Virus record (IMG/VR): IMGVR_UViG_3300015076_000001
Coordinates: 1 to 58,162 of that record
Reading direction: 5' to 3' (one strand)
Length of the DNA stretch: 58,162 nt
From: a virus
In this document: one piece after another, positions 21,238 to 57,548 of the stretch
Layout of the letters: each line of letters starts with the position of its first letter
Position numbering within the stretch: the first letter of the stretch is position 1
Made by a program: the position numbers and the translations under genes
The notes under the pieces: model-generated
Seen by the model: only the letters and a program-made list of their open reading frames with translations
What the model was told of the DNA's origin: nothing
Databases searched by the model: none

Positions 21238-21662
21238 GGCTTCGCGCGCAGCGCCATCTCCGCCGCCAGTTCGGCGACAGCGGCGTCGACATCGGCGGAA
21301 GCGTGGGTGACGGTGGCGGAGATCTTCTCCGGCGCGTCCAAGCCGTGGAGCTTCGCGCGGCGTTCCATCAGCCGGATCACGGTCTCCGCGGAGCGGACGT
21401 GACCCTTCATCGCCTGCGGCCACAGGGCCAACAGCAGCTGGTCGAGGCGTTCGAGTTCGAGGGCGAACACGACCTCGGCCTCATCCTTCGGCACCTCGGC
21501 CAGGGCTTGCTTGACGGCGCGTTGCGCGGAGCCGCGGTTGGTGTAGCCGACACGGTCTGCGATGGCGTCGTAGGTGGCTCCCGCCTTGCGGAGCTTCAAC
21601 GCTTCGCGGCGCTTCTCGGCGGCTTCGATGCGGCGGGGGGATGCCATGTCCTCAGCCATCAT
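21234..21662 (-). CDS. terminase small subunit
   Basis: 142 aa, ATG at 21662 overlapping the methylase stop. Residues 10-55 carry a helix-turn-helix (EKRREALKLRKAGATYDAIADRVGYTNRGSAQRAV), then helical oligomerisation segments (ELERLDQLLLALWPQAMKG, AETVIRLMERRAKLHGLD). It recognises the packaging site and recruits the large subunit encoded next. Confidence 0.82.
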   Translation of the reverse strand: MMAEDMASPRRIEAAEKRREALKLRKAGATYDAIADRVGYTNRGSAQRAVKQALAEVPKDEAEVVFALELERLDQLLLALWPQAMKGHVRSAETVIRLMERRAKLHGLDAPEKISATVTHASADVDAAVAELAAEMALRAKP

Positions 21663-23245
21663 TCCCCCGTGAAGTCGTGTGGGATGCCGTCACGGGTGGG
21701 CTTAACACCCGTGTGTTCCTGGTAGCGACGGCAGATGACGTCGACATAACCCGGGTCGAGCTCGCAAGCAACGACCGTCCGGTTCAGATGGTGGGCGGCG
21801 ATGAACTCGGGGCCGCTGCCACCGAAGGGGACGCCGATGACGTCGCCAGCCTCGCTGCTCGACTTGAAGGCCCGCTCAACCATCGCGACCGGCTTGGGGG
21901 TGGCGTGGCCCTGGCGCTCTTCGCCTGTGACCCGGGGGAACTCCCAGACGTCGCGCATGACGTCGTGGGCGTTATCGAAGAACGTGCGTGACTCGCGGAG
22001 TTGCGCGGACAGTTCCCGACGGTGGGCGTTGCCGCCGCCCTTCACCTCAGGGAACATCTCCGCGAACAGCTCGTCGTAGTCCTTGGTGAACGCGCGACCG
22101 GCCGCGGCCTGCTGCAGCGTCCAGTAGTGCTGCGCGGAGATAGGCGCGAACTGTGAGCGGCTGAACCAGTGCCCGGCCATCTGGGTGGCGGTGAGGCCGT
22201 TGACGTCCCGGTTGGTCCAGCCAACCTTGTCGCGCTCGACTTCTAACCACGCGCGCAGCGGCTCGTAGCCTTCCCAGAAGTCGTCCTTGTTCTGGTTGCC
22301 GAGGAACTGCTCGCCGCGCATGAGGAACAGGCATCGCTCGGTTGCGGTCGGGAATGAGTGCTCGAGCGCGGAGCGCATCCCGGGCGTGCTGCCTTTGTCC
22401 CAGACGATCTCGTTGCGGACGAGAAGCTCGTCGGAGGCGAGACCACCCACCCACCAGAGCCGCCACAGGTCGGGGGCGTTACCCCAGATGTAGGCGGAGC
22501 CATTCTCGGCGAGCGTGGGGAGCCATGCCTTCCACCAGCGCATCTGGAACTCGTCGAGCTTGGGGCCGTACAGGTTGTCGTTGAGGACCCCGTCGGCTTC
22601 CTTGCCCATGCCGTAGGGCGGGTCGGCGTGGATGAGGGTCAGCGTGGCCTCGCCGACGACGCGTTTGACGTCTGCCGGGTTGGTGCTGTCGCCGCAGAGC
22701 AGACGGTGGGGGCCGAGTTCCCACAGGTCGCCGAGCGCACTGACGGGCTCCGCGGGGGGGTCGGGTGTGGCGTCGTCCGGGGTGAGGCCTGCGCCGGCAC
22801 CGCCGTTGTCGTCTTCCAGCCCGTCTAAGGCCGCTTCGAGCGCTGCGAGGTCGCCTGCGTCGTAGCCGGTGCCGTCGAGGTCGGGCAGGTCGGCGAGCAG
22901 TTCAAGCAAGAGCCGGTCGTCGTACTCACCCAAGTCCGAAGACCGGTTATCAGCTGCCACAATGCGTGCGGCCTGGTCGTCGTCCACGTCCACCGTGACC
23001 GCTGCGACGGTTTCCCAGCCGAGATCACGGGCGGCCATGAGGGTGTGGTTCCCGGCCAACACCTCGTTGGGGCGGCCGGTGTAAGTACCCGCGTTGATCA
23101 GGATGGGCTTGAACTGCCCGTTGACCCGGAGCGACTGTGCGATGACTGCGGTGTTGCCACGTCGTGGGTTGCGGTGATACGTGCGCAGTTCGGCGACGGG
23201 GACGGTGGTGGTTTCGAGGTTGTGCACCCGGTTGGTTGTGGTCAC
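21659..23245 (-). CDS. ParB-like nuclease domain fused to DNA methyltransferase
   Basis: 528 aa, GTG at 23245. Residues 12-110 are a ParB/sulfiredoxin-like domain (PVAELRTYHRNPRRGN, IAQSLRVNGQFKPILIN, GNHTLMAARDLGW). Residues 165-520 are an amino-methyltransferase of the beta order: DPPYGMG at about 208 (catalytic motif IV), and GDVIGVPFGGSGPEFIAAHHLNRTVVACELDPGYVDVICRR (SAM-binding motif I) near the end. It probably makes N6-methyladenine or N4-methylcytosine, protecting phage DNA from restriction or marking packaging. It sits directly upstream of the terminase genes. Confidence 0.9.
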   Translation of the reverse strand: MTTTNRVHNLETTTVPVAELRTYHRNPRRGNTAVIAQSLRVNGQFKPILINAGTYTGRPNEVLAGNHTLMAARDLGWETVAAVTVDVDDDQAARIVAADNRSSDLGEYDDRLLLELLADLPDLDGTGYDAGDLAALEAALDGLEDDNGGAGAGLTPDDATPDPPAEPVSALGDLWELGPHRLLCGDSTNPADVKRVVGEATLTLIHADPPYGMGKEADGVLNDNLYGPKLDEFQMRWWKAWLPTLAENGSAYIWGNAPDLWRLWWVGGLASDELLVRNEIVWDKGSTPGMRSALEHSFPTATERCLFLMRGEQFLGNQNKDDFWEGYEPLRAWLEVERDKVGWTNRDVNGLTATQMAGHWFSRSQFAPISAQHYWTLQQAAAGRAFTKDYDELFAEMFPEVKGGGNAHRRELSAQLRESRTFFDNAHDVMRDVWEFPRVTGEERQGHATPKPVAMVERAFKSSSEAGDVIGVPFGGSGPEFIAAHHLNRTVVACELDPGYVDVICRRYQEHTGVKPTRDGIPHDFTGE

Positions 23246-44496: not shown

Positions 44497-44759
44497 GATT
44501 CGTGCTCCCAATCCTCGGAGGCGGGCAGCGCGATAGATGCCCAGAAGTCGACGGGGATTCCCCCGGCCTGCATGTGGTTCGCGGCGTAACGGGCGCAGAT
44601 GATCGCGACCTTCTCCGGTCGCACACCCTGGTCGTCGGCAGCGGCTTGAAGCGCCGCCAAAGCGTCGGACGTGGCCGTGTTCGTCTCGCGGGACATGTGC
44701 CGTACCAGGGCGATCGCTGTGCGGATTTCGGCGTGAGTGCCGACGGGGGGCTGTGTCAT
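44493..44759 (-). CDS. small helical protein
   Basis: 88 aa. THAEIRTAIALVRHMSRETNTATSDALAALQAAADDQGVRPEKVAIICARYAANHMQAGG, all-helical, ends DWEHES. Directly downstream of the antirepressor in the operon. Not recognised. Confidence 0.6.
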   Translation of the reverse strand: MTQPPVGTHAEIRTAIALVRHMSRETNTATSDALAALQAAADDQGVRPEKVAIICARYAANHMQAGGIPVDFWASIALPASEDWEHES

Positions 44760-45565
44760 GAGGCCACGTCCTCAACCCGCAGGTGGTTGTGCAGCCACTC
44801 CAAGCCCTTGACCGTCACCCGGATCTGCGGCGGATCAAAGATCAGCTCAGCGGTACGCGGGTGGTAGTGGGACTGCGGAAGCTCCATCAGCCGACCTGAC
44901 TCGATCGCGGTCTGGTAGGCGCGCCACCGCTGGTCGGCGCGGCCCCGGAAGATCCAGCCGAGATCCGACAGAACGGTGAACAGGCGCCGCTCCCCGATCT
45001 TGATGTTGGGGTCGCGAGACAGCAGCTTCGCCGCGTCAGCCACGGACAAGTCACCGGCAGCAGTAGCGAGGGTGTTCCACGACTCGGCCGCCGGAGCCAG
45101 TGCCTTGACCTGCGCCTTAGCGGCGACCAATTCACGGGCGGTGTTGCCCAGGATCTCGACGACAGCGAGGACGCCCTCAGGGGTGGAGATGTCCGGGACC
45201 GCGACGGATGCAGCCGCGACGGCGGCGACTTCGCCACGGCGGTAGCGGGGCAGCAGGTCGGACGTCACCCAGCGCTTGAACTCCCGCGCTTCAGGCTTCG
45301 GCGACTGGAACACCAGGTCGTAGAGGCCGGACTCGTTGACGACCGTGACCTCTTGGACCTGCGGAGCGATACCCCGGAAGTACTGCGGAGTATCTGACCT
45401 GCGCAGACGGCGGACGTCCCGATCATCGACCCGGCGCAGCGCCGACGTGGTGTCCTTGAGGGCGCAGATCGCACAGACGTCGACCGCTAGGAACCACGGC
45501 TCGCCGTCCAGGATGAGGGTCCGGACCTCGTGGTCGCGGAAGGTGAACAGTTCGATCTCGCTCAT
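44756..45565 (-). CDS. phage antirepressor (Bro-N plus KilAC domains)
   Basis: 269 aa, ATG at 45565. Bro-N domain at 1-110 (LFTFRDHEVRTLILDGEPWFLAVDVCAICALKDTTSALRRV, VNESGLYDLVFQSPKPEAREFKRWVTSDLLPRYRRG). KilAC/ANT domain at about 150-265 (DLSVADAAKLLSRDPNIKIGERRLFTVLSDLGWIFRG, IRVTVKGLEWLHNHL). Antirepressors release phage repressors or host regulators. Its place early in the leftward operon, after the divergent promoter, fits a switch role. Confidence 0.9.
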   Translation of the reverse strand: MSEIELFTFRDHEVRTLILDGEPWFLAVDVCAICALKDTTSALRRVDDRDVRRLRRSDTPQYFRGIAPQVQEVTVVNESGLYDLVFQSPKPEAREFKRWVTSDLLPRYRRGEVAAVAAASVAVPDISTPEGVLAVVEILGNTARELVAAKAQVKALAPAAESWNTLATAAGDLSVADAAKLLSRDPNIKIGERRLFTVLSDLGWIFRGRADQRWRAYQTAIESGRLMELPQSHYHPRTAELIFDPPQIRVTVKGLEWLHNHLRVEDVAS

Positions 45566-46531: not shown

Positions 46532-46629
46532 TGTTTCTGTCGCCACAGAATAGGCCCGAACGGGCCGGTTGCGCAAGTTGATCCGGCGTGTTTCTGTCGC
46601 TACACTTATGGCCATGGCCGTAGCGACAG
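46532..46629. promoter_or_regulatory. divergent promoters with three operator boxes
   Basis: Rightward promoter: TTGATC (46578-46583), 17-base spacer, TACACT (46601-46606), start near the ATG at 46614 (leaderless). Leftward promoter: TTGCGC (46576-46571), 17 bases, TATTCT (46553-46548). Boxes: TGTTTCTGTCGCCACA (46532-46547), TGTTTCTGTCGCTACA (46589-46604) and the inverse GTAGCGACAG (46620-46629). Each -10 touches a box, so one repressor could close both. A TTGCGCAA octamer (46569-46576) lies on the leftward -35. Confidence 0.75.
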
Positions 46630-46994
46630 GACATTGCCCTGACCAGGGCGAACCGTCTACGGTCGCGACCATGGTGGGGCGGCCGAAGACAGGAGTCACC
46701 TTCATCGCCCGCGTCCGCATCCCGAAACCGGAGTGGGACGCGATGGAGGCGGACGCCGAAGTCATTGGGCCCGACCGATCCAAGCTGATCAACGAGTTCG
46801 TCGACATGATCCGACGCGACCCCATCGCCTGGCGCGACGCCCGACGGGTCGCCACAGCACGCGGCGAGACCATCGTCGGCGTCGTCCTCAAGGCCCTGCG
46901 CTCGTACGTCGCCCGCAACCGTGAGCTGCTCATGCCGCCACCAACGGAGACCCGGCCGCCCGAGCAAGCCGCTCCCGAACTGCCCTCGTCCTGA
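46614..46994 (+). CDS. putative ribbon-helix-helix regulator of the divergent promoters
   Basis: 126 aa from ATG at 46614 (second of two in-frame ATGs; the promoter geometry implies a leaderless start). Residues 25-75 (GVTFIARVRIPKPEWDAMEADAEVIGPDRSKLINEFVDMIRRD) look like a ribbon-helix-helix: a strand then two helices. A second helical segment (ARGETIVGVVLKALRSYVARN) and a Pro-rich tail follow. Being under the repeated boxes, it is the natural candidate to bind them. Its 3' end overlaps the LuxR gene on the other strand by 65 bases. Confidence 0.65.
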   Translation: MAVATGHCPDQGEPSTVATMVGRPKTGVTFIARVRIPKPEWDAMEADAEVIGPDRSKLINEFVDMIRRDPIAWRDARRVATARGETIVGVVLKALRSYVARNRELLMPPPTETRPPEQAAPELPSS

Positions 46995-47262
46995 GCAGCT
47001 CTTGCTCGTACGCAATCGCCACCGCGTGCGCCCGATCCGTCGCACCGATCTGGCGCAACGTGCGCGCGACGTGACCCTTCACGGTGGCGAACGCGACGCC
47101 CAGATGGGCCGCGATCTGCTCATTCGTCCAGCCCTGCGCCACCCCGCACAGCACGTCGCACTGCCGAGATGTCAGCCCGAGAGCACGCGCTACCTGCTCG
47201 TCAACCCATCGCTCTCTTCCCTTTCCCTCTTCTTCTGGGGGGCGGGAACCGTCGGCGCTCAC
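46930..47262 (-). CDS. LuxR-type HTH regulator
   Basis: 110 aa, GTG at 47262. A GerE-type domain fills residues 18-85: VDEQVARALGLTSRQCDVLCGVAQGWTNEQIAAHLGVAFATVKGHVARTLRQIGATDRAHAVAIA. There is no receiver or sensor domain. Last gene of the leftward transcript from 53 kb. It could control late genes. Confidence 0.82.
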   Translation of the reverse strand: MSADGSRPPEEEGKGRERWVDEQVARALGLTSRQCDVLCGVAQGWTNEQIAAHLGVAFATVKGHVARTLRQIGATDRAHAVAIAYEQELLRTRAVRERLARAAGSPLVAA

Positions 47263-47519
47263 GACGCCACCGCCCGACGATCGCGTTCACGCTGCGTCCG
47301 AGCAGTCGTGCACGGCACGCACCGGCACGAATAGTTGACATACGTGGAGTAGTCGCCGTGACGGACGTAAGCGCCCGGAGCGACAAGGCGGCCACCGACC
47401 ATCACCCGCGCGGCGCGCCTCTTGCGCTTGGCCTCACCCTGGTAGGCGTTGGCCGCCGCCCGGCACATGCCACAGCGGCATCTGTAGTTCACATAGGTGG
47501 AGTAGCTGCCGTGTTTCAC
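47259..47519 (-). CDS. tandem Cys-repeat protein
   Basis: 86 aa. Two copies of HGxYSTYVNYxCRCxxC (residues 3-19 and 54-70) joined by a basic linker. The unit resembles the GRxGTxAGYxAHxxxGxxPCxxC repeats of the homing endonuclease at 14607..15722 and probably binds zinc and nucleic acid. Confidence 0.68.
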   Translation of the reverse strand: MKHGSYSTYVNYRCRCGMCRAAANAYQGEAKRKRRAARVMVGGRLVAPGAYVRHGDYSTYVNYSCRCVPCTTARTQRERDRRAVAS

Positions 47520-47791
47520 AACCGACCCCTGTAATCGACGTGGACGTCATCGACAGGCAGCCGCGGGTTCCCCCACGACGTCGACGGCCGCGGCGGAGGA
47601 CCCCCAAGAGTCGTGAGCCGAGCCCGGTCCGCCACATCGGCCCGCAACCGTTCGATCTCTTTGCCCCGCCGGTCGTACTCGGCCATGACCGCTTGCGCGT
47701 CTACTCCGAGTGGTGACTGCTCACTGGCGAGGATGCGGAGCGCGTTCTCGTGGGCTCGCAGGAAACCGGCGGCCTGCTCGTCGGCGGTCAC
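47516..47791 (-). CDS. small helical protein
   Basis: 91 aa. TADEQAAGFLRAHENALRILASEQSPLGVDAQAVMAEYDRRGKEIERLRADVADRARLTTLG is helical, with a Pro-rich end. Coupled to the glycosyltransferase gene. Not recognised. Confidence 0.6.
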   Translation of the reverse strand: MTADEQAAGFLRAHENALRILASEQSPLGVDAQAVMAEYDRRGKEIERLRADVADRARLTTLGGPPPRPSTSWGNPRLPVDDVHVDYRGRL

Positions 47792-49116
47792 GCGGCCACC
47801 TCGAGCTCGACAACCTCAGCGCCGGTGGCGCGGGTTCCCCAGTTGGTGGAGCGCAGCGTGCACAGCGACCAGATCCGCAGCGGCAGCAACACGAGGACGT
47901 GCAACATCCCGTACAAGGGGGCGAGCAGGAACACCGCCAACTGCTGGACGCGGGGATAGTCGGGGCGGCGCACCGAGAACACGTGGACGGATCGGGCGTA
48001 GCCACCCAACGTGACCCACACGAGGTAGTCCACGACATGCACCTCGCCGGTGATGGCGGGCAACACGAACAGGGTGAAGAACAGTCCACCGGTGAAGCCT
48101 GCCCACGACACGGTCTCCACCAATGCAAGCCACCAGGCGGGACGACGCGGGGACAGATGAGTCAGCGACCACAGGGACTCGCGGAAGAACGACCGGCCCC
48201 AGCGAATCTGTTGACGGATCAGATGCCCGCCCTTCTCCGGGACGGCGGTGCGCGCGACCGCCGAGTGGGCGAGCACAACCCGCCCGTGCAGCAGCGACAG
48301 GTTGGTGAGGTGGCGGTCGTCGCCGTACGTGGCGGGCTGGCCCAGGAAGGTTTGCCCCAGGAAGTCCTCGAGGTGAGCCTTGACGATGTCGGCCCGCCAA
48401 AACGCCAACGACCCGCACACGCACAGCACCGCACCCAACCTCGAGTAGGCGGCCCGCTCGTACAGGAACGCGTTCACATACCGCAGGTCCAACAGCCGCG
48501 GCAGCAGCCCGGAAGCATGGTTGAGCGCGACAACGGTTCCGGTGACAGCGGCGGTACGCGGGTCGGTGAACGGCGCCAACCCCTCCCGGATCGCGCCGGG
48601 CTCGAGCACGGTGTCGGAGTCGACACACACGAACACATCCACCAGGTCGGCGAGCTCGGCGAACGCCCGCCCCATCGCGGCCCGCTTGCCCGCGTTGTGC
48701 TGCCACACCACCGTCGCCCCTCGAACCCTCGAGGCCCAATCGGTGGCGACCCCATAGGCAGCGGGATCAGTGGAACCGTCATCGACGATCCGCACGAACA
48801 CGGGCTGATGCGTTTGACGACCGATCGACTTGAGGCAGCGGGCCAGCGTGGCGGGATCCTCGTTGAAGATCGGCACCACCACGCACACCCGCGTCGTCGA
48901 CAGCGCGGGCGACCACTGCTGCGGCGGCGCCAGTGACAGCCCCAGCTTCACCGCCAGCAGCACACCCACCGTTGCGCCATAAACGCCCCACACGTGGGCG
49001 CTGTGCGCCAGCCACACGACGGCCACTGAGGTGATGAGGGTGGCGACGGCGAGGGTTGCGGCAGGGTTGGGGCGGGTGGTGATCTCGACCAGCCGCAACC
49101 GGTGACGGCCGCTCAC
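47788..49116 (-). CDS. hyaluronan-synthase-like membrane glycosyltransferase (GT2)
   Basis: 442 aa from GTG at 49116. Two N-terminal membrane helices (about 18-38, 44-62), then the GT2 catalytic domain: VCVVVPIFNEDPATLARCLKSI, VDDGSTD (112), VCVDSDTVLEPGA (DxD near 166), YGDDRHLTN (265) and QQIRWGRS (302-309), the set of processive synthases. Three or four C-terminal helices follow (about 330-420). It probably builds or modifies a surface glycan using UDP-sugar, more likely changing the host envelope than phage DNA. Confidence 0.9.
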   Translation of the reverse strand: MSGRHRLRLVEITTRPNPAATLAVATLITSVAVVWLAHSAHVWGVYGATVGVLLAVKLGLSLAPPQQWSPALSTTRVCVVVPIFNEDPATLARCLKSIGRQTHQPVFVRIVDDGSTDPAAYGVATDWASRVRGATVVWQHNAGKRAAMGRAFAELADLVDVFVCVDSDTVLEPGAIREGLAPFTDPRTAAVTGTVVALNHASGLLPRLLDLRYVNAFLYERAAYSRLGAVLCVCGSLAFWRADIVKAHLEDFLGQTFLGQPATYGDDRHLTNLSLLHGRVVLAHSAVARTAVPEKGGHLIRQQIRWGRSFFRESLWSLTHLSPRRPAWWLALVETVSWAGFTGGLFFTLFVLPAITGEVHVVDYLVWVTLGGYARSVHVFSVRRPDYPRVQQLAVFLLAPLYGMLHVLVLLPLRIWSLCTLRSTNWGTRATGAEVVELEVAA

Positions 49117-49229
49117 GTCTCGCCCCCTGCGCAGTCCATGTCGCATTCGTCGTCGGAATGCCAGACGGCGCAGTCCGCACGATGAATCGGGCCTGGGGTG
49201 TCGTCGTCCTCGACGGCCAGGGCGGTCAT
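49113..49229 (-). CDS. 38-aa acidic Cys protein
   Basis: ATG at 49229, stop overlapping the glycosyltransferase GTG. TALAVEDDDTPGPIHRADCAVWHSDDECDMDCAGGET is acidic with three Cys and two His. Coupled on both sides, so probably real. Confidence 0.55.
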   Translation of the reverse strand: MTALAVEDDDTPGPIHRADCAVWHSDDECDMDCAGGET

Positions 49230-49450
49230 GACACACCGCCCGTGCTGTAGCCGTCCACCGCGTCGACCAGGGCCTGCAAGGTGGGGTCGTCGAGGGCGTC
49301 GAGCCTGCGGGCGGTCGTCGTCACATACACCGCTGCGGCGTCCGCTATGGGGCGCAGCTGCTGCACCTCACGCGCTAGCAGGTAGGCGGAACTACCCGGT
49401 CGGGCCTGGGTCAGGCCGTAATGCAGGGCAGCCTCAAGAGGAGTGGTCAC
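49226..49450 (-). CDS. small helical protein
   Basis: 74 aa. TPLEAALHYGLTQARPGSSAYLLAREVQQLRPIADAAAVYVTTTARRLDALDDPTLQALVDAVDG, all-helical. Not recognised. Confidence 0.6.
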   Translation of the reverse strand: MTTPLEAALHYGLTQARPGSSAYLLAREVQQLRPIADAAAVYVTTTARRLDALDDPTLQALVDAVDGYSTGGVS

Positions 49451-49656
49451 GACGCCACCGCCTTGGTGGGCCTCACGTACCAGGTGCGGTCGTTCTCCGC
49501 GAGCGCCCAGCCGTCACCGGCGGGGCGCATGCGAACGCCCTGGAGGTAGACGGTGTCGCCCTCCATGGTGGCGTCGACGGGCACAAACCCGGGCCAGCGA
49601 CTCCCAACCCTGATGAAGATGGCGGCGTAGGCATGGGCGCGTTCCAGAGCGGTCAT
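49447..49656 (-). CDS. small hypothetical protein
   Basis: 69 aa. RAHAYAAIFIRVGSRWPGFVPVDATMEGDTVYLQGVRMRPAGDGWALAENDRTWYVRP, beta-rich. Not recognised. Confidence 0.6.
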   Translation of the reverse strand: MTALERAHAYAAIFIRVGSRWPGFVPVDATMEGDTVYLQGVRMRPAGDGWALAENDRTWYVRPTKAVAS

Positions 49657-49940
49657 GAGGTCACCGCGTCGAGCTCGAGCCCCGTGATCTCGCGCGCCTC
49701 ACCCAAAGTGGGACGCCGGGTATCAGCGTGGACACCGACGGATTCCGCCCACACCGACGACAGCGACAGGCACACCCGCATGTCGCAGCACAACCGGTAG
49801 TGCGGCTCCACGTCCCAACCGTCAGAGCCGTCGACGGCGACGATGGCCTCGATCAGCCAGGCGATAGGCCGGTCGCCGCATACCCAGCAGGTGGCGACGC
49901 GAGGTGCGATACGGCGCCAGAGGCGCAGGAGGGCGCTCAT
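49653..49940 (-). CDS. small protein with two Cys pairs
   Basis: 95 aa, ATG at 49940. VATCWVCGDRPIAWLIEA and YRLCCDMRVCLSLSSVWAE suggest a zinc site around a helix. Directly downstream of the WhiB gene. Not recognised. Confidence 0.62.
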   Translation of the reverse strand: MSALLRLWRRIAPRVATCWVCGDRPIAWLIEAIVAVDGSDGWDVEPHYRLCCDMRVCLSLSSVWAESVGVHADTRRPTLGEAREITGLELDAVTS

Positions 49941-50377
49941 GCCGACACCGCGCTCTTCCGGGCGTTACGCCGCTTCAAGGACCGTCGCTCGTCTTCGCTC
50001 AGGCCGCCGAAGACGCCCGCGTCGAGACCGTTCGCCATCGCGTAGTCAAGACATTCGCTGACCACCGGGCACCGAGCACAGACCGCCTTGGCGTCGGCGA
50101 GCTCCAAGAGAGCGGGCCCGGACGTCCCCACTGGGAAGAAGCGGTCCGGGTAGACCTCGCCACGACATGCCGCGCGGTGGCGCCAGTCGTCACCTCCGCC
50201 GCTCCGGCGCTCCCCCGCAGGCTGCTTGGCGACCTTCCCGGCCCGGCGATCCTTGGCGCAGTCCACGGAGCAGGTGATCTGCGGCGCCCACTTCGACGGG
50301 GAACAGGAACGCGGCCGGTAGAAACGGTCCCCGCAGGCGGGGCAGGTTTTGAACTCGGCGAAGAAGTCGGCCATCAC
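49937..50377 (-). CDS. WhiB-family Fe-S regulator with N-terminal zinc finger
   Basis: 146 aa, GTG at 50377 in a GTGA overlap; ATG follows. Residues 10-42 are a zinc finger (KTCPACGDRFYRPRSC...ITCSVDCAKDRR). Residues 62-142 are a WhiB domain: DDWRHRAACRGEV (Cys71), CARCPVVSEC (Cys100, 103, 109) for the 4Fe-4S cluster, GVFGGLSEDERRSL as the G-[VI]-[WF]-G-G turn, and a basic end (KRRNARKSAV). WhiB proteins bind sigma factor SigA in actinobacteria; phage copies interfere with host WhiB function. Confidence 0.92.
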   Translation of the reverse strand: MMADFFAEFKTCPACGDRFYRPRSCSPSKWAPQITCSVDCAKDRRAGKVAKQPAGERRSGGGDDWRHRAACRGEVYPDRFFPVGTSGPALLELADAKAVCARCPVVSECLDYAMANGLDAGVFGGLSEDERRSLKRRNARKSAVSA

Positions 50378-50979
50378 GATCCGACCTCGACAGGCACCGG
50401 GTCGACAAAACGGACCGGCTTACCCAGGGTTGCCGCATACGACACTTCCAGCAGCGACCACCGACCCAGGGTTCCGTCCGGGCGGGGGACCACCACGATC
50501 TCATCCGCCGTAGCCAGGTAGGGCTTGTAAGCCTCCACCGCAGCGGGCTCGTCTGTGTCGGCAGCGAAACGGGGGATGGCGATGACGTCGCGGCCCGCCC
50601 TGGTCTCAGCGGCGGCGACAGCGTGAAGCAGCCCCGGGTGAAACAGCGACCCGATGATCGCCACCTTTACCCGCCGGTCCCCGTCCAGAACCCGACGCAC
50701 CGCGTGAATCGCCCAGACAAACGGGGCATCCAGGGTTTGCACCTCGACGCTCAGATCGTCGAACGCGATGAGGCTGCGATGTTCCGGACGGTCCACGGTG
50801 GTCGCCAAGGACCAGGCGTCGTGAACATCCTCCAACGTGGTCGCGGCACCCTTTGTCAGGACGAGGAGGGCGTACAGCCGCCCCATCTCACCGGGGAGGG
50901 GCGAATGGCCGTGCCGTGTCAGTTCCTCGTTGAGGAGGTCAACAACCCGGTCGACGTAGTTGGTTTCGGTGGCGGTCAC
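50374..50979 (-). CDS. two-domain protein with deoxyribosyltransferase-like C-terminus
   Basis: 201 aa, GTG at 50979. The helical N-terminus (YVDRVVDLLNEELTRHGHSPLPGEMGRLYALLVLTKGAATTLEDVHDAW) is typical of a small actinophage domain. The C-terminal half is Rossmann-like (VKVAIIGSLFHPGLLHAVAAAETRAGRDVIAIPRF, ATADEIVVVPRPDGTLGRWSLLEVSYAATLGKPVRFV), like nucleoside deoxyribosyltransferases or sugar-nucleotide binders. Catalytic residues are not certain. Confidence 0.7.
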   Translation of the reverse strand: MTATETNYVDRVVDLLNEELTRHGHSPLPGEMGRLYALLVLTKGAATTLEDVHDAWSLATTVDRPEHRSLIAFDDLSVEVQTLDAPFVWAIHAVRRVLDGDRRVKVAIIGSLFHPGLLHAVAAAETRAGRDVIAIPRFAADTDEPAAVEAYKPYLATADEIVVVPRPDGTLGRWSLLEVSYAATLGKPVRFVDPVPVEVGS

Positions 50980-51521
50980 GACGAGGTCTCCTTGACGAGG
51001 CGGGGGCGATAGGACGGGAGAGCGGTGGTGCGCTCCACGCCGTCATGGCCGGGTGAGGGCTGGTGGTGACGCCCGCTGTCCGGCAGGGAAAGGACGGGCG
51101 CGGGAGTGCGAATCACCTGCTGCTCGACGCTCGGGCGCACGGGAGGGGCGGGCAGGGGCCAGACCGACGGAGAACGGTTGCCCAGGTCCGGGGCGAGCGG
51201 TGCCGAGACGGGCGTGGGCATGGGTTGGAACACCTGCGGCCCAGCGGCGTCGACAGCGGGCGGGGAGAACTCGCCCGTTGCCACCCGTTCCGCCATCTCC
51301 TGACGGGTCGACTGCACGGGATGGGCCCGGGTGGCGCTCTCCGCGGTCGCGACCCGACGCACTTCGGCTTCGGTGAGCGCGGCGGTGACGGACTCGGCGC
51401 GACCCGAACGGCGCCCGGCCCAGTGGCCCAGAGCGAAGAAGACGGCGAGGACCACACCCGCCACGGTGAGCAGGATTGTCAAGGCTGGGTCGGTGTTGAG
51501 GGGGGTGATGAGGTCGTTCAC
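50976..51521 (-). CDS. single-span membrane protein with Pro-rich tail
   Basis: 181 aa. One membrane helix near 15-34 (ILLTVAGVVLAVFFALGHWAG), a charged helix (ESVTAALTEAEVRRVATAES), and a long disordered Pro/Ser-rich tail. Not recognised. It resembles phage membrane anchors of unknown role. Confidence 0.62.
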   Translation of the reverse strand: MNDLITPLNTDPALTILLTVAGVVLAVFFALGHWAGRRSGRAESVTAALTEAEVRRVATAESATRAHPVQSTRQEMAERVATGEFSPPAVDAAGPQVFQPMPTPVSAPLAPDLGNRSPSVWPLPAPPVRPSVEQQVIRTPAPVLSLPDSGRHHQPSPGHDGVERTTALPSYRPRLVKETSS

Positions 51522-51754
51522 GAAACGTCTCCAGGTGAAGGCGGGGTTTCCCCGCCGAGATGGGGGGCGGCGGCGGCACGCAGGGCCGCGAGAGAACCCG
51601 GCGCCAGCCGCAGCACAAGGTGCGTGGTGCCGTCCTGGTCACCGATAGAGACGGTGTGACGGCCATCCCCGCGGGCGGCGATACGGACCGGGTGGGAGGC
51701 GAAATCAGCGGTGACGTAGATGGTGCAATCGGTGATCGTCGGCGGGGCGGTCAC
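51518..51754 (-). CDS. small beta-rich protein
   Basis: 78 aa. TITDCTIYVTADFASHPVRIAARGDGRHTVSIGDQDGTTHLVLRLAPGSLAALRAAAAPHL, a beta-sheet with one helix. Not recognised. Confidence 0.6.
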   Translation of the reverse strand: MTAPPTITDCTIYVTADFASHPVRIAARGDGRHTVSIGDQDGTTHLVLRLAPGSLAALRAAAAPHLGGETPPSPGDVS

Positions 51755-52308
51755 GGCGTCGCCTCGGGGGCGTCAGTCCACGGGCCAGTGCGGATCTCGC
51801 GGCGGACGGCCACACCGGAATCGGTCGGGTCCGCCGCTACGACGCGCGCCGCCTCCTCGTCCTCGTAGTAGTCGTCGACGTCGTCTTCGCGATAGCGGAC
51901 ACCCCACTCGACGCGCACCTGGCCCGCGTCCAACTCGGCGACCCGGGAGCGGAGGTAGGCCAGCTCCTGTCGCATGCCCACCACGCCGAGGTAGCCGAGG
52001 AACGAGCGGGCGATGTGTTCGGAGTCGGCTACGCCGCCGTTCATCAGGTTGCGAAGGTGCCGGGCCAGCGCCCCCACCTCGACGTCGGCGGGCTGCGACG
52101 GTGCGTCGCGGTGTGCGGCAGTCAGCCACACCGCGTCAGCAGGCAGCTCACGGATGATCGCCCAGCCGTCACCGTCGGCCGACCACGCCAGCGGGACAGT
52201 GGCGACGGTGGCGTCGATGAGGCCGTGCTGGGAGTGCTCATCACCGGCGGCGGCGTTGAGGTGCTCGGCCAGCGACGGGGACCAATAAAGAACCGGCGGC
52301 AGGGTCAT
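51751..52308 (-). CDS. acidic hypothetical protein
   Basis: 185 aa from ATG at 52308. PPVLYWSPSLAEHLNAAAGDEH, a central helix (VGALARHLRNLMNGGVADSEHIARSFLGYLGVVGMRQELAYLRSRVAEL) and an acidic segment (YREDDVDDYYEDEEAARVV). Not recognised. Confidence 0.62.
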   Translation of the reverse strand: MTLPPVLYWSPSLAEHLNAAAGDEHSQHGLIDATVATVPLAWSADGDGWAIIRELPADAVWLTAAHRDAPSQPADVEVGALARHLRNLMNGGVADSEHIARSFLGYLGVVGMRQELAYLRSRVAELDAGQVRVEWGVRYREDDVDDYYEDEEAARVVAADPTDSGVAVRREIRTGPWTDAPEATP

Positions 52309-52505
52309 GTCCGGTCCTCGACGGGAACCAGACGCCACGACGCCGCGCTCACGGAGGGGCCACCGTCGGGCGTGTAGCTGACGCTGAGCACATCTCCGTC
52401 AATGGACCACCCGAAGTAGCCCATGACGTCGTCGCCGTCGTTGTAGTCGGAGCTGGCGTCTTCTCCGTACTCGGAGAGGATCGCGAGCATCTGCTGCGCG
52501 TTCAC
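52305..52505 (-). CDS. small acidic protein
   Basis: 66 aa from GTG at 52505 (GTGA overlap). NAQQMLAILSEYGEDASSDYNDGDDVMGYFGWSIDGDVLSVSYTPDGGP, acidic with a beta-hairpin. Not recognised. Confidence 0.6.
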   Translation of the reverse strand: MNAQQMLAILSEYGEDASSDYNDGDDVMGYFGWSIDGDVLSVSYTPDGGPSVSAASWRLVPVEDRT

Positions 52506-52615
52506 GAGACACCCCCGATGGTGTTGAACGCGCAACCGGGGTTGTGCGGGCTGCCGTAAGGGGCTCCGCAGCTGATGCAGGTAATGGCGGACAGGAGCCG
52601 CAGCAGGCGCCTCAT
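52502..52615 (-). CDS. 37-aa protein with Cys pair
   Basis: ATG at 52615 overlapping the upstream stop; its TGA overlaps the next GTG. MRRLLRLLSAITCISCGAPYGSPHNPGCAFNTIGGVS: a hydrophobic start and C-x2-C...C. Similar CxxCGxPYGxxHxPGC proteins occur in other actinophages, from memory. Confidence 0.58.
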   Translation of the reverse strand: MRRLLRLLSAITCISCGAPYGSPHNPGCAFNTIGGVS

Positions 52616-53010
52616 GCCACCACCGCCACGTGTGCCGGGTTGGTGCAGCCCCGGACGGAGCAGGCGGAGAAGGTGCCGACCCAGGTGCAGCGGGGCAGGG
52701 CGTCCAACGCCTGCTGACGGTCCAGTTCCGCGAGAGCACCGGACGCGGTGAACGCGCGCGCCTTCGGCAGGGACACCTCACCGCGGAGCTCGCGGCCGGT
52801 GGGCGTGTGCCGCACCGTCCATGTGGAGCCCGCGTTCTCGGCGCGGAAGTACAGCCACACGCCATCGGCGGAGCGGCAGGAGGCGATCTCCTCACGCTGC
52901 TTGCGGAGGTCGATCAGGGTCATGATCGTGGTCTGGTCGATGTCGGTGAGACCGACTCGGGGGGCCGCCGCAGTGAAGCGGGGGCGGGTGGGGCAGGCCG
53001 TTTGGTGCAT
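52612..53010 (-). CDS. hypothetical protein, first gene of a leftward operon
   Basis: 132 aa from ATG at 53010; MTLIDLRKQREEI further inside is an alternative start. TLIDLRKQREEIASCRSADGVWLYFRAENAGSTWTVRHTPTGRELRG, then a helix (LAELDRQQALDAL) and a C-terminal Cys cluster (RCTWVGTFSACSVRGCTNPAHVAV). It lies directly behind the operator boxes at 53031-53069, so it heads the early accessory operon down to 46930. TATGCT about 11 bases before the ATG may be its -10. Confidence 0.62.
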   Translation of the reverse strand: MHQTACPTRPRFTAAAPRVGLTDIDQTTIMTLIDLRKQREEIASCRSADGVWLYFRAENAGSTWTVRHTPTGRELRGEVSLPKARAFTASGALAELDRQQALDALPRCTWVGTFSACSVRGCTNPAHVAVVA

Positions 53011-53030
53011 GACGCAATCAGAGCATAAGT

Positions 53031-53069
53031 CTGCGCATATTGCTAGTGATTCTTGCGCGTGTTGCGCAA
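53031..53069 (-). promoter_or_regulatory. operator boxes (TTGCGCAA-like) for the accessory operon
   Basis: CTGCGCAT (53031-53038), TTGCGCGT (53053-53060) and TTGCGCAA (53062-53069). The last two, 9 bases apart, match the pair at 55035-55051 in 15 of 17 positions (TTGCGCGTGTTGCGCAA versus TTGCGCATGTTGCGCAG). An AGAGCA element flanks both sites. One repressor probably controls both promoters. Confidence 0.72.
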
Positions 53070-53128
53070 CTGAGATCCACTCTTACCTGTAGACGTGCAG
53101 CGCGTCCCACGGTTGCCTGGACAGCGAA

Positions 53129-53167
53129 GAACCCCCGCTGCCTGTGCACCTCAGGCGGCGGGGGTTC
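53129..53167 (-). terminator. 16-bp hairpin terminator
   Basis: Arms GAACCCCCGCTGCCTG / CAGGCGGCGGGGGTTC pair over 16 bp with one G-U, loop TGCACCT. A second weaker hairpin (CCCGACAG ... CTGTCGGG) lies just beyond at about 53174-53210. It separates the operon ending at 53330 from the promoter at 53 kb. Confidence 0.75.
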
Positions 53168-53217
53168 GTGGCACCCGACAGACCCCGGAGGGGGCCGGAC
53201 CTGTCGGGGGGTTCTAT

Positions 53218-53323
53218 GTCATGGTGGGCGGTGGCAGCGACGTCCCCAGTCCATGTCGGGCCTAACCGTCCTTCGGCCCTCCCGCAAAATGCCACCCTCA
53301 CCGGGCGAGCGGCCCACCATGAC
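53218..53323 (-). ncRNA. highly structured noncoding element
   Basis: The ends pair perfectly over 12 bp (53218-53229 with 53312-53323, GTCATGGTGGGC/GCCCACCATGAC). A second 7-bp helix (53230-53236 with 53290-53296, GGTGGCA/TGCCACC) stacks next to it, offset only by a 15-base bulge. An inner hairpin (GGGCC/GGCCC) caps the fold. It begins 7 bases after the stop of the 53330..53560 gene and precedes a terminator. It could be a stable small RNA or a protected 3' UTR. Strand is inferred from the flanking genes. Confidence 0.5.
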
Positions 53324-53329
53324 AAGCTC

Positions 53330-53560
53330 TTAGGCGATCCGGCTCAGCCGGGGCACAGCGATCGGACCAGGCGCCCGGTTCCACAGCCACGGCGCCCAAC
53401 GCCGCCGGAACGCCTCCCGCCCGACGGCATCATCATCGCCCGGCAGGTCAGCCGCCTCCCTGAGAAGGAGAGCCGCTACGGCTTGATCGTGCGGGTCGAA
53501 CACGATGGACCTGATAGGTAGGGTCGACATAACTCGGTCATCTTTCGTGAGGTTGGACAT
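53330..53560 (-). CDS. small hypothetical protein
   Basis: 76 aa from ATG at 53560; ATG 53530 is an alternative that avoids overlap. STLPIRSIVFDPHDQAVAALLLREAADLPGDDDAVGREAFRRRWAPWLWNRAPGPIAVPRL. Last gene of the operon starting at 54430. Not recognised. Confidence 0.58.
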   Translation of the reverse strand: MSNLTKDDRVMSTLPIRSIVFDPHDQAVAALLLREAADLPGDDDAVGREAFRRRWAPWLWNRAPGPIAVPRLSRIA

Positions 53561-53759
53561 GATGGGGCCGAGCGCGGAACCGGTAACTGCCGCGCTCAGC
53601 ACGCAGGATGGCGTTCTCCGCGGCCAGGTAGGCAGTCAACTGCCGCTCATCCTCCAACGCGCGCTCGGTGGCGCACAGCCCCACGTGCAGCCGGCGCATC
53701 CGCGCCCGCAGCCACGCTTCCGCCTCGTCGTAGGTCAGGGTCAACTCGGTGGCCGTCAT
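53538..53759 (-). CDS. small helical protein
   Basis: 73 aa. TATELTLTYDEAEAWLRARMRRLHVGLCATERALEDERQLTAYLAAENAILRAERGSYRFR, helical and charged. ATG overlaps the upstream stop. Not recognised. Confidence 0.6.
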   Translation of the reverse strand: MTATELTLTYDEAEAWLRARMRRLHVGLCATERALEDERQLTAYLAAENAILRAERGSYRFRARPHHVQPHER

Positions 53760-54109
53760 CGGGGAAGCTCCGCCGCACGACGGTCAAGGTAGGGCCGGGT
53801 GCGGGGGACCGGGTCCGGACACTCACCGGATGACCGGTTCGCAGCCAGGTGCCGGACACGTTCCCGTTCCAGTTCGGCCGCGTGCACGGCGTCCAGGGCC
53901 GCGGTCAGCCGGTCCCGGTCGCGGCGAACCTCCTCTAACTGGGCGGCCCACAACTGTTCGGCCCGACCGAACGCGCGGATGCGTTCGTGTAGTTCGAGGA
54001 TGTAGAGCCGGACGGCTTCCACGTGCGGCACCCGGACGGGGCGGATGGCAGGCCCGGCGAGGAGTTCCAGGTGATGTTCGAGTTGGCGGACGGCGAGCTC
54101 ATCAGACAC
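53756..54109 (-). CDS. coiled-coil protein
   Basis: 117 aa from GTG at 54109, about 9 bases after GGAGGAG. SDELAVRQLEHHLELLAGPAIRPVRVPHVEAVRLYILELHERIRAFGRAEQLWAAQLEEVRRDRDRLTAALDAVHAAELERERVRHL, long helices. Not recognised. Confidence 0.62.
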   Translation of the reverse strand: MSDELAVRQLEHHLELLAGPAIRPVRVPHVEAVRLYILELHERIRAFGRAEQLWAAQLEEVRRDRDRLTAALDAVHAAELERERVRHLAANRSSGECPDPVPRTRPYLDRRAAELPR

Positions 54110-54251
54110 GGGCAAGCTCCTCCTTCCACAACGCGAAGTGCTCGGCCTCGGTCAAGACCTGGTCCGCGTGGCCGATGACGGCGCCCACAACCCGGCCGAT
54201 GACGGCGGCGATAACGAGCCATCCGGCGCCGATCCATACGAGCACGGTCAC
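54102..54251 (-). CDS. 49-aa membrane protein
   Basis: GTG at 54251 in a GTGA overlap. A single membrane helix (VTVLVWIGAGWLVIAAVIGRVVGAVIG) then an amphipathic tail (HADQVLTEAEHFALWKEELARV). Function unknown. Confidence 0.6.
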   Translation of the reverse strand: MTVLVWIGAGWLVIAAVIGRVVGAVIGHADQVLTEAEHFALWKEELARV

Positions 54252-54430
54252 AGCCACGCTCCTTGAAGGCCGGCCAGGATGATGCGGGTGAACAGGTCAG
54301 GGCCAACGGCGTTGCGGTGCGCCGGCATGCGGGTCAGGGTGGCCGGGCCGCGCAAGGGGAGGGCGCGGTGGCGGGGCAGGCGGGCTTTACGGTGTCGTCC
54401 GCTGCGGGGTCTAGGCTGCGGGAGACTCAT
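54248..54430 (-). CDS. small basic protein
   Basis: 60 aa, ATG at 54430. SLPQPRPRSGRHRKARLPRHRALPLRGPATLTRMPAHRNAVGPDLFTRIILAGLQGAWL; Arg-rich. May bind nucleic acid. First gene after the terminator at 54462-54501. Confidence 0.55.
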   Translation of the reverse strand: MSLPQPRPRSGRHRKARLPRHRALPLRGPATLTRMPAHRNAVGPDLFTRIILAGLQGAWL

Positions 54431-54461
54431 GATTCGGGCAGGCCGCCTTTCCGTGGGTTAC

Positions 54462-54501
54462 TGATGCGGGGCTCTCTGTGATGTCGGGGGGTCCCGCATC
54501 A
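54462..54501 (-). terminator. hairpin terminator downstream of the HTH gene pair
   Basis: Arms TGATGCGGG / CCCGCATCA separated by 22 bases, placed after the stop at 54516 and before the ATG at 54430. It likely limits read-through from the regulatory genes. Confidence 0.6.
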
Positions 54502-54515
54502 CCACGTTCGCACAC

Positions 54516-54686
54516 CTATGCGGCTGCGTTAACTTCTGGCTGCGCGCAGGTGAACACTCTGCGTAACACTTCGATCTGTTCCGGGGTGGGGTCGGGGGCG
54601 TCGTCGGCGAGAGCTCTGGCGTGGGCCGCAAGATCAGGACCTAGCGCGGCCGCGGACTCGGCGACGGTCGGGAGCCGGGTGTTCAT
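54516..54686 (-). CDS. small helical protein downstream of Cro-like gene
   Basis: 56 aa from ATG at 54686, overlapping the upstream stop. NTRLPTVAESAAALGPDLAAHARALADDAPDPTPEQIEVLRRVFTCAQPEVNAAA. Not recognised. Confidence 0.58.
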   Translation of the reverse strand: MNTRLPTVAESAAALGPDLAAHARALADDAPDPTPEQIEVLRRVFTCAQPEVNAAA

Positions 54687-54985
54687 GCGGCGCGGTTTTC
54701 GGTGCGCGATTCGGCGGCTGCGCGTTCGGCGCAGACGGGGCAGCCGGCGACGGTGACAAGATCGTCGATGGTGAGCGGGCGCCCGTCGATGAGGATGCCG
54801 AGCCGGTTGGCGGCGGCGACGAACCGGTGAGCCATCTCGACGGAGACGTAGGTGCTGTTGCCGGTGTCGGAGCGGACGACGGTGGAGATGTGGCAGCCGA
54901 CCTCTGTGGCGAAGCGTTTCTGGCTGATCCCCGCTGCTCGGCGGGCGTCGCGCAGCTTCTCGCGGTGGTAGGTGGCGCCGATCAT
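54683..54985 (-). CDS. XRE-type HTH regulator (Cro-like candidate)
   Basis: 100 aa, ATG at 54985. Residues 8-60 are an HTH (REKLRDARRAAGISQKRFATEVGCHISTVVRSDTGNSTYVSVEMAHRFVAAANRLG). The C-terminus has a Cys pair (VAGCPVCAERAAAES). It faces the rightward HTH gene across the box array at 55013-55064, the arrangement of a lytic regulator opposite a repressor. Confidence 0.72.
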   Translation of the reverse strand: MIGATYHREKLRDARRAAGISQKRFATEVGCHISTVVRSDTGNSTYVSVEMAHRFVAAANRLGILIDGRPLTIDDLVTVAGCPVCAERAAAESRTENRAA

Positions 54986-55012
54986 CGGGCGGTCGCCGTC
55001 TCAAGATGATCC

Positions 55013-55064
55013 ATGCGCAAATTAGAGCACACTCTTGCGCATGTTGCGCAGAAGTGTTGCGCAA
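55013..55064. promoter_or_regulatory. operator array of the immunity-like switch
   Basis: Four boxes related to TTGCGCAA: ATGCGCAA (55013-55020), TTGCGCAT (55035-55042), TTGCGCAG (55044-55051) and TTGCGCAA (55057-55064). The array separates the leftward gene at 54985 from the rightward repressor-like gene at 55179. AT-rich TCTAAT between boxes one and two may be the leftward -10. Confidence 0.72.
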
Positions 55065-55166
55065 TAGTGGCGATCATGTGCGCTACCTGCGACTCTGCCT
55101 CCCGTGACGGGGCAAATCGAACGAGTGATCATCGATCCAGGCGCGCTAGGTAAGCAGAGTCCTGCG

Positions 55167-55172
55167 TATTCT
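55167..55172 (+). promoter_or_regulatory. -10 box of a leaderless promoter for the repressor-like gene
   Basis: TATTCT lies 6 bases before the GTG at 55179, so transcription would begin at or next to the start codon. No good -35 was seen. Confidence 0.5.
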
Positions 55173-55178
55173 TCCGCC

Positions 55179-55514
55179 GTGAAGTGGACCGCGGAGGAGA
55201 TCCGCAGCCGACGCCGCGCCAAAGACTGGTCGCAAGACGACCTCGCTCAAGCGCTCGGCGTCCACAAGAGGTCGGTCACCAACTGGGAGTCGGGCGCGTC
55301 CAAGCCGCAGGCCGGGAACATCGACGCGCTGGAGCACGCGCTCGGGGACGCGCCGGTCCCGGAGGTGACTTTGTCGGGCGCGTCGAACCTGCAATTCGTG
55401 TCCGAGCTTGCGCGAAGACTGGAAGCGGGCGGGCTGGACGACAGCCTCAGATTGCCCGAAGGGGACATCGGGTGGCCGCAACGGAAGTTGACGCGGCGTA
55501 GCCGTAACGCCTGA
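55179..55514 (+). CDS. XRE-type HTH repressor candidate
   Basis: 111 aa from GTG at 55179 (leaderless). Residues 1-58 are a clear XRE domain: VKWTAEEIRSRRRAKDWSQDDLAQALGVHKRSVTNWESGASKPQAGNIDALEHALG. The C-terminal part (NLQFVSELARRLEAGGLDDSLRLPEGDIGWP) may oligomerise. It has no LexA-type peptidase, so induction would need another signal such as the antirepressor. It probably binds the TTGCGCAA boxes and maintains lysogeny. Confidence 0.78.
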   Translation: MKWTAEEIRSRRRAKDWSQDDLAQALGVHKRSVTNWESGASKPQAGNIDALEHALGDAPVPEVTLSGASNLQFVSELARRLEAGGLDDSLRLPEGDIGWPQRKLTRRSRNA

Positions 55515-55794: not shown

Positions 55795-56079
55795 GTGCAG
55801 CCCGCTCAAGACCCCGGCGAAGCTCGACACCTCGCGCTCTACCGCACCCTCACCGGACACCTCGCCGCCGCGGGCGTCACCATCGAACACGCCGACCTCC
55901 CCGACGAGATCGCCCACTGGACCGCAGCCACCAAAACACTGACCCTGCACAACAGCGAAGGCCTCGCCGAGCACGTCGAGATCCTCGGCGACTTCATCAA
56001 CATGATCTCGCTTGATCAGCCCTCCCGTCTCGGCGCCCGCCCACTCCCCCCGCGGCGACACCTCCACGTCGTCGACTAG
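55795..56079 (+). CDS. small hypothetical protein
   Basis: 94 aa from GTG at 55795, AGGAGG 8 bases upstream. RHLALYRTLTGHLAAAGVTIEHADLPDEIAHWTAATKTLTLHNSEGLAEHVEILGDFINMI is an alpha/beta domain. Its TAG is palindromic with the integrase stop (CTAG), so the two genes meet tail to tail. Position between repressor and integrase suggests a lysogeny role; not recognised. Confidence 0.65.
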   Translation: MQPAQDPGEARHLALYRTLTGHLAAAGVTIEHADLPDEIAHWTAATKTLTLHNSEGLAEHVEILGDFINMISLDQPSRLGARPLPPRRHLHVVD

Positions 56080-57548
56080 GCCGCGCCCAGCCACTCCAGC
56101 CGCACCGTGTCCGGGTCAAAACCGCGCACACCTTTGCGCGTCACCGGCAACACTGTGACCGTGCACAAGGCGCGGACCACGATGCGCCGCTGCTCGATCC
56201 CCAAGGTGTCCCACACCGCCGCAGCGTCCGCACCCGCCATCTCCAGCACCGCCGTAGGAAGCACCGGCAACGGGGCGATCTCAGCCTCCAGTTCGGCAAT
56301 CCGGGACGAGATGCGGGTCGCGATACGGACGAACGTGGCCGCCGGCACCCCCGACGGGGTACCGGCCAATGCCTCATACTCGGCCAACTCGGCACGGGCA
56401 TCCGTCAACTCTTGAGCGGCCACCTCCATCCGCCCCGATGGTTTCACCGGCGCAGTGAAAGCCGCAGCCCAATCCGGGCGGGACAGCCGTTCCACGACGG
56501 CCAGGGCGACGAAGGCGTCAAGCGGTGGGGCCGCGCGGGAAACATGCCCGGTACCGGTGCCGTTGAGTCCGTTGCAGCTATAGGAGGGGCGGCCACGGTT
56601 GGAGTAGTGCCGCAACCATCCGCCGCACACCGCGCACTTGCCGATCCCCGACAACAGATGGCAGGCAGCGGTGCCGCGCTGGGTTCGCCGCCGCGGATCG
56701 TTGATGATCCGCAGCACCGCCTCATAATCGACCACCGAAACCAGCGGCTCCCACGCGATGCTGTGCCGCACGCCGCGATGGACCCGCCAGCCCGCCATCG
56801 TGGGCGAGCCCAGCAGCTTCCGCAGCTTCGGGTTGTTCCAACCGCCCCGCTGCACCCCAACGCGCTTAAGACGCCTGTCCCGAACCATCTGCGGGGTTGG
56901 CACCCCGCGCCGGTTGAGGTCCACCGAGATGCCGTGCAAGCTCTCTCCCGCCAAGACACGGGCGACTACCTCTTGCACGATTGGAGCTGTCTCCTCGTCC
57001 GGCACCTGCCGGGCGGGCTCTCCCGACGCGGGGTCGTACTCGCGGCGGAACCCGTAAGGGATTGACCCCCAAGCGCGCCCCTGCTCAGCAGCGGAGTCCG
57101 TGGCCCGCTTCACCCTCTCGGAGATCATGGCCGACTCACGGACAGCCATCGCCATGCCCAAGTCAAGGAGGAAACCGTCATCCGGCCGGCGGACGTCATG
57201 GTCTTTCCCGTTGACGGAGATCAGCACCCCGGAGCGGGCACAGGCCTTCATCAGGGCCGCCCACACCTCGCGGTCACGGGACGCCCGGGACACTTCCCAC
57301 ACCCACAGGATGTCCAACTTCTTAGCGGCGATGTCAGCCATGACCCGCTGCCAGTCAGGCCGTTGTTTGCGGGTGTCGTAGGCCGAGATGCCATCGTCGC
57401 GATACTCACCGACGATGTGATGCTGTTGCTGGTTTGCCCAGCGGCGGCCAACGCCGAGCTGGGAGTCGACTGATCTACCTTCCCGGGTGTCGATGGAAAC
57501 GCGGCCGTAGATGCCGGCGCGTTGACTGGGCTTGGCCACTGCTGACAC
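56076..57548 (-). CDS. int: large serine integrase
   Basis: 490 aa, GTG at 57548. Catalytic resolvase domain at 8-155 (AGIYGRVSIDTREGRSVDSQ with Ser18; WVWEVSRASRDREVW; GFLLDLGMAMAVRESAMISERVKRA). Recombinase domain at 160-300 (IPYGFRREYDPASGEPARQVPDEETAPIVQEVVARVLAGESLHGI, LLGSPTMAGWRVHRG). Zinc ribbon near 312-335 (CAVCGGWLRHYSNRGRPSYSC). A coiled-coil segment lies near 380-435 and a C-terminal part follows. It recombines attP with attB without host factors. attP is expected close to the gene; it was not identified. Confidence 0.95.
   Translation of the reverse strand: MSAVAKPSQRAGIYGRVSIDTREGRSVDSQLGVGRRWANQQQHHIVGEYRDDGISAYDTRKQRPDWQRVMADIAAKKLDILWVWEVSRASRDREVWAALMKACARSGVLISVNGKDHDVRRPDDGFLLDLGMAMAVRESAMISERVKRATDSAAEQGRAWGSIPYGFRREYDPASGEPARQVPDEETAPIVQEVVARVLAGESLHGISVDLNRRGVPTPQMVRDRRLKRVGVQRGGWNNPKLRKLLGSPTMAGWRVHRGVRHSIAWEPLVSVVDYEAVLRIINDPRRRTQRGTAACHLLSGIGKCAVCGGWLRHYSNRGRPSYSCNGLNGTGTGHVSRAAPPLDAFVALAVVERLSRPDWAAAFTAPVKPSGRMEVAAQELTDARAELAEYEALAGTPSGVPAATFVRIATRISSRIAELEAEIAPLPVLPTAVLEMAGADAAAVWDTLGIEQRRIVVRALCTVTVLPVTRKGVRGFDPDTVRLEWLGAA

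Follow-up and report, generated by a model that had tools for sequence, protein, structure and literature searches.

The octamer TTGCGCAA and its variants recur before three transcription units of the virus record IMGVR_UViG_3300015076_000001, which raises the question of whether one repressor governs the switch, the accessory operon and the early operon alike, as a sequence-only reading had proposed. The window, by which we mean the whole stretch of DNA analysed, is this 58-kb record (67% GC); its genes include those for a terminase, portal, capsid, serine integrase, WhiB-like protein and antirepressor, and its structural genes point leftward. A search for DNA similarity to phage records returned no match for the switch region. 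The terminase and integrase are closest to those of Mycobacterium and Gordonia phages, with less than 40% identity, and the host is therefore inferred to be actinobacterial. The large serine integrase gene (56076-57548, minus strand) adjoins the switch, and the surroundings of 55013-55073 are best explained as an immC-like immunity region belonging to a temperate phage that resembles actinophages. Elsewhere in the window, a ParB-like N-terminal part is fused to a DNA methyltransferase in one protein (21662-23245, minus strand).

Phased sites at two candidate leftward promoters

A motif scan of the window, which the earlier reading had named as a check, spoke for its octamer in the exact form and against it in the relaxed form. 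Exact TTGCGCAA occurs three times (46569, 53062 and 55057) against about 0.5-0.57 expected, whereas with up to one mismatch there are 18 occurrences against 16.6 expected; this latter count is at background, and one octamer by itself therefore says little. It is how the sites are arranged that is informative. All of the repeats that had been described are present, forming a phased array at two promoters, with the copy at 46569 standing alone.

At the first of these, the candidate leftward promoter P1, three TTGCGCA-like 8-mers begin at 55013, 55035 and 55057 with an exact spacing of 22 bp, a three-site grid expected 0.05 times per randomised window. Within the window, TGCGCA-N16-TGCGCA is confined to this array (55014-55063), and four one-mismatch copies of TTGCGCA fall inside 52 bp (55013-55063), a number that none of 200 shuffles reached. 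The features are as follows.

55013-55029, operator unit U1, ATGCGCAAATTAGAGCA, on the start side of the P1 candidate -10, first of the three sites spaced by 22 bp
55035-55051, operator unit U2, TTGCGCATGTTGCGCAG, upstream of the P1 candidate -10
55057-55073, operator unit U3, TTGCGCAATAGTGGCGA, third site of the 22-bp grid
55021-55029, minus strand, P1 candidate extended -10, TGCTCTAAT, a TGCTCTRAT 9-mer

The second leftward promoter, P2, has TTGCGCA-like 8-mers at 53031 and 53053, again 22 bp apart, together with a degenerate one at 53009, and three one-mismatch copies of TTGCGCA lie at 53031-53068.

53009-53025, degenerate unit V1, ATGACGCAATCAGAGCA, in the register of U1 (offset 2004)
53031-53047, operator unit V2, CTGCGCATATTGCTAGT, in the register of U2
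53053-53069, operator unit V3, TTGCGCGTGTTGCGCAA, with TTGCG/CGCAA arms intact, in the register of U3
53017-53025, minus strand, P2 candidate -10, TGCTCTGAT, 6 nt before the ATG at 53010
52612-53010, minus strand, first gene of the P2 operon, 132 aa, no family
49940-50377, WhiB-like gene, downstream of the first gene
47791-49236, glycosyltransferase gene, downstream of the first gene

The P2 operon runs leftward from 53010 to about 46930. Between the P1 operon and P2 lies a strong bidirectional hairpin (53124-53172; about -35 to -40 kcal/mol, z -3.3 on the minus strand and -5.7 on the plus strand), which is a probable terminator that would end the P1 operon and separate it from P2.

The two promoters share a register. 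The 9-mer TGCTCTRAT is found twice in the window, at P1 and P2 and on the minus strand in both cases (0.29 expected), and an alignment anchored on it has an offset of 2004 and pairs U1 with V1, U2 with V2, and U3 with V3. A pair of 17-mers with identical spacing had been reported for these places, and TTGCGCRTGTTGCGCAR does occur exactly only at 53053-53069 and 55035-55051 within the window; with up to three mismatches, it has four matches, which none of 100 shuffles reached. These 17-mers are, however, U2 and V3 of two three-unit grids, and pairing them, at offset 1982, shifts the register by one 22-bp period. The best ungapped 41-mer between P1 and P2 has 28/41 identities at either offset (2004 or 1982; maximum of 26 in 300 shuffles), which is the expectation for a 22-bp periodic operator beside a shared promoter. 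Over the 51 bp upstream of the 9-mer, 24/51 positions are identical at offset 2004, and 79 other 51-mers of the window do as well; the two-promoter case is thus built on the phased sites and the 9-mer and makes no use of overall similarity.

Coincidental matching in a GC-rich genome, as the background count of one-mismatch forms across the window might suggest, appears a highly improbable explanation of the octamers, since the 22-bp phasing, the clustering at two promoters and the common register with TGCTCTRAT all exceed randomised controls. A putative repressor common to 55013-55073 and 53009-53069 is well supported by this arrangement, and the proposal of one repressor for all three promoters holds to this extent, for the switch and the accessory operon; its extension to the early operon at 46569 is not supported.

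Two roles are conceivable for the 9-mer, that of an extended -10 and that of a conserved arm of the operator. A standard sigma-70 scan predicts no promoter at P1 or P2, and the second position of the conserved TCTRAT is not the A of the actinobacterial -10, TANNNT, a motif present at 73% of primary start sites in M. tuberculosis (PMC3898074). Overlapping TANNNT alternatives are available at both promoters, TAATTT (55024-55019) at P1 and TATGCT (53027-53022) at P2. The predicted start site of P1 coincides with the beginning of a 10-codon frame encoding MDHLETATAR (54982-55014, minus strand), which shares an ATGA overlap with the start of XRE1 and may encode a leader peptide, itself leaderless, that is coupled to XRE1.

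We propose that P1, which would serve the XRE1 operon, and P2 have a common operator of 8-bp TTGCGCA-like sites placed every 22 bp, which is two helical turns, such that two of the sites bracket the candidate -10 and the third lies farther upstream. If a small XRE repressor bound them cooperatively along one face of the DNA, it would occlude the promoter, and both operons would be silent in the lysogen.

Candidate proteins at the switch

The P1 array sits between two divergent XRE genes.

54683-54985, minus strand, XRE1, 100 aa, lambda-repressor-like HTH, first sizeable gene of the P1 operon
55179-55514, plus strand, XRE2, 111 aa, HTH_3, immunity-repressor candidate

XRE2 had been called the obvious ligand. 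It is indeed a good candidate by position, being oriented against the lytic direction, adjoining the integrase gene and having its candidate promoter outside the array; XRE1, which lies directly downstream of the array, had been overlooked. The sole TANNNT upstream of XRE2, TATTCT at 55167-55172, is located exactly 6 nt before the GTG in a leaderless-like arrangement, approximately 100 bp from the array and well outside it. Since the structural genes are read leftward, position marks XRE2 as the candidate repressor and XRE1 as the Cro-like candidate. The operators are probably bound by XRE2 and/or XRE1. XRE2 is the likelier immunity repressor, in which case it would act on P1 and P2, and XRE1 is a candidate Cro-like partner, which would probably use the same sites, or a candidate autorepressor.

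A more tentative possibility is that XRE1 is the main repressor, binding the array in autoregulation as well as P2, and that XRE2 has another role. The array immediately precedes XRE1 and shares sequence with its candidate promoter, the 100 aa of XRE1 approach the 99 aa of the phage P2 C protein, and the XRE1 model gave generic HTH matches only, with a weak resemblance to lambda-repressor-like and 434 Cro folds. On the other hand, XRE1 heads an operon that runs in the lytic direction, which is the position of Cro or Cox and not that of an immunity repressor, and XRE2 is the better HTH match as well as the neighbour of the integrase gene. The AlphaFold model of XRE2 was unusable (pLDDT 44). Upstream of XRE2, an 8-bp inverted pair, GACTCTGC/GCAGAGTC, occupies 55091-55098 and 55154-55161 and is a weak candidate for a separate XRE2 control site.

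A probable separate circuit at the early operon

The region around 46.5 kb differs from P1 and P2 in its sites and in its neighbouring genes.

46569-46576, lone TTGCGCAA octamer, between the Arc-like gene and the antirepressor operon
46535-46550, dyad TTCTGTcgccACAGAA, overlapping the candidate -10 TATTCT (minus strand, 46552-46547) of the antirepressor operon
46592-46604, second motif copy TTCTGTCGCTACA, overlapping the candidate -10 TACACT (46601-46606) of the Arc-like gene
46608-46994, plus strand, Arc-like ribbon-helix-helix protein (phrog_6506)
44756-45565, minus strand, Bro-N/ANT (KilAC) antirepressor, in the leftward early operon

The antirepressor (early) operon at 46217 leads into replication genes and is divergent from the Arc-like gene. 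No TTGCGCA with up to one mismatch is present 22 bp to either side of 46569, and this promoter has a different dyad set; for these reasons, the octamer probably stands outside the array, and the reading of all three sites as one operator was rejected for 46569. The TTCTGTCGCYACA motif occurs only twice in the window, at 46535, where TTCTGTCGCCACAGAA forms a perfect dyad, and at 46592, and each of the divergent transcription units has its candidate -10 overlapped by one of the copies. The Arc-like protein is the likely ligand of both sites, which would make it the early operon's own repressor and place this operon, through its own dyads, under separate control.

The claim that the early operon is a third target is not supported, given the different dyads, Arc-like gene and antirepressor operon at this promoter. 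It is unlikely that XRE2 also represses this operon through the single TTGCGCAA at 46569 in a one-repressor network. This octamer does match TTGCGCNNGTTG as well as U2 and V3 do (four matches in the window, the fourth in a coding frame at 26734), and it is situated in the divergent promoter region of the early operon, where it adjoins a TTGATC -35-like hexamer of the Arc-like gene. However, it has no second site at 22 bp while P1 and P2 have two or three, a different repeated dyad lies over both candidate -10s beside the Arc-like gene, and about 0.5 exact copies of TTGCGCAA are expected per window by chance. With moderate confidence, we favour two distinct systems, namely, a C/Cro-type operator set of immC-like character at P1 and P2 and, for the early operon, an Arc/antirepressor circuit of its own that resembles immI.

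An Arc-like regulator gene divergent from an antirepressor gene is the layout of the immI circuit of phage P22, which contains Arc, Mnt and Ant. The corresponding layout is present between 44756 and 46994, with an Arc-like ribbon-helix-helix gene divergent from the antirepressor operon and dyads between them. Differences from P22 are that the antirepressor here is of the Bro-N/KilAC type and belongs to an operon leading into replication genes; no second ribbon-helix-helix (Mnt) gene was recognised.

Relation to known switches and meaning

The nearest parallel in geometry is the C protein of phage P2, a 99-aa dimer that binds 8-bp repeats 22 bp apart from centre to centre, flanking the -10 (PMC4752584). 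The same centre-to-centre distance of 8-bp repeats is present at 55013/55035/55057 and 53031/53053, and, as with O1 and O2 at Pe, the 8-mers of U1 and U2 (55013-55020 and 55035-55042) are 22 bp apart; they lie on either side of the TGCTCTRAT 9-mer, which from its sequence is the putative -10 of P1. In contrast to the phage P2 case, there are three phased units here, the 8-mers are palindromic, the same set recurs at a second promoter, and the integrase is a serine rather than a tyrosine enzyme. P2 C had no entry among the solved-structure matches of XRE1 or XRE2 at the threshold used.

The OR regions of lambda, 434 and P22 are likewise comparable in having divergent XRE genes around three evenly spaced sites; in addition, the 17-bp unit with its TTGCG/CGCAA arms resembles a CI/Cro site, and the HTH of XRE2 is nearest to P22 C2 among solved structures (E 0.003). 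They differ in that only one unit per promoter keeps both arms here (both are intact in V3 and nearly so in U2, and U1, U3, V1 and V2 have one arm only), that XRE2, with 111 aa, lacks a C-terminal cleavage/oligomerisation domain, and that its candidate promoter is ~100 bp off the array. The array appears to share the P2 C geometry, with membership of the P2 C or lambda OR family not established. Among actinophages, the repressor of cluster A (L5-like) mycobacteriophages acts at several sites in one genome (PMC9283540), as the candidate repressor here would; L5 stoperators are asymmetric 13-mers, more than 20 in number and dispersed over the genome, whereas the full operator is found here at two promoters only.

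Relatives were sought in several collections. XRE1, P0003 and the Arc-like protein had no homologue in the phage or viral collections searched, and no relatives of XRE1, XRE2, P0003 or the terminase were found in IMG/VR. The replication initiator had one distant relative in IMG/VR, the record of which (L172) contains no comparable TTGCGCA array. A single XRE1 match in GTDB genomes was rejected as an unrelated Bacteroidales fragment. When IMG/VR was scanned for the 17-mer core and for the 22-bp triple, many stretches were retrieved, but they were unrelated and consisted for the most part of coding matches or simple repeat arrays. They encoded no significant relative of XRE1 and some weak HTH matches to XRE2; a P1/P2 consensus scan gave no match. 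Five unrelated IMG/VR contigs (L132, L138, L148, L157 and L164) carry long TGCGCA repeat arrays at an 11- or 22-bp phase. In the literature, nothing relevant was found on TTGCGCAA in connection with phage repressors.

Phased repressor operators before two neighbouring operons are likely to represent an ordinary kind of phage on/off switch. It is conceivable, and we advance this only tentatively, that the switch has two layers, namely, a P2-C-like direct-repeat operator acting on two operons in one register and an Arc/antirepressor circuit acting on the replication operon, in a phage of an actinobacterium-like host and of a lineage with no close relative in the collections searched. To our knowledge, few repressors are known that read direct repeats two helical turns apart, and the protein acting here would be a further candidate. 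The present analysis provides a precise and testable map of the candidate operators that would control lysogeny in a divergent temperate phage and separates two regulatory circuits that had previously been merged into one.
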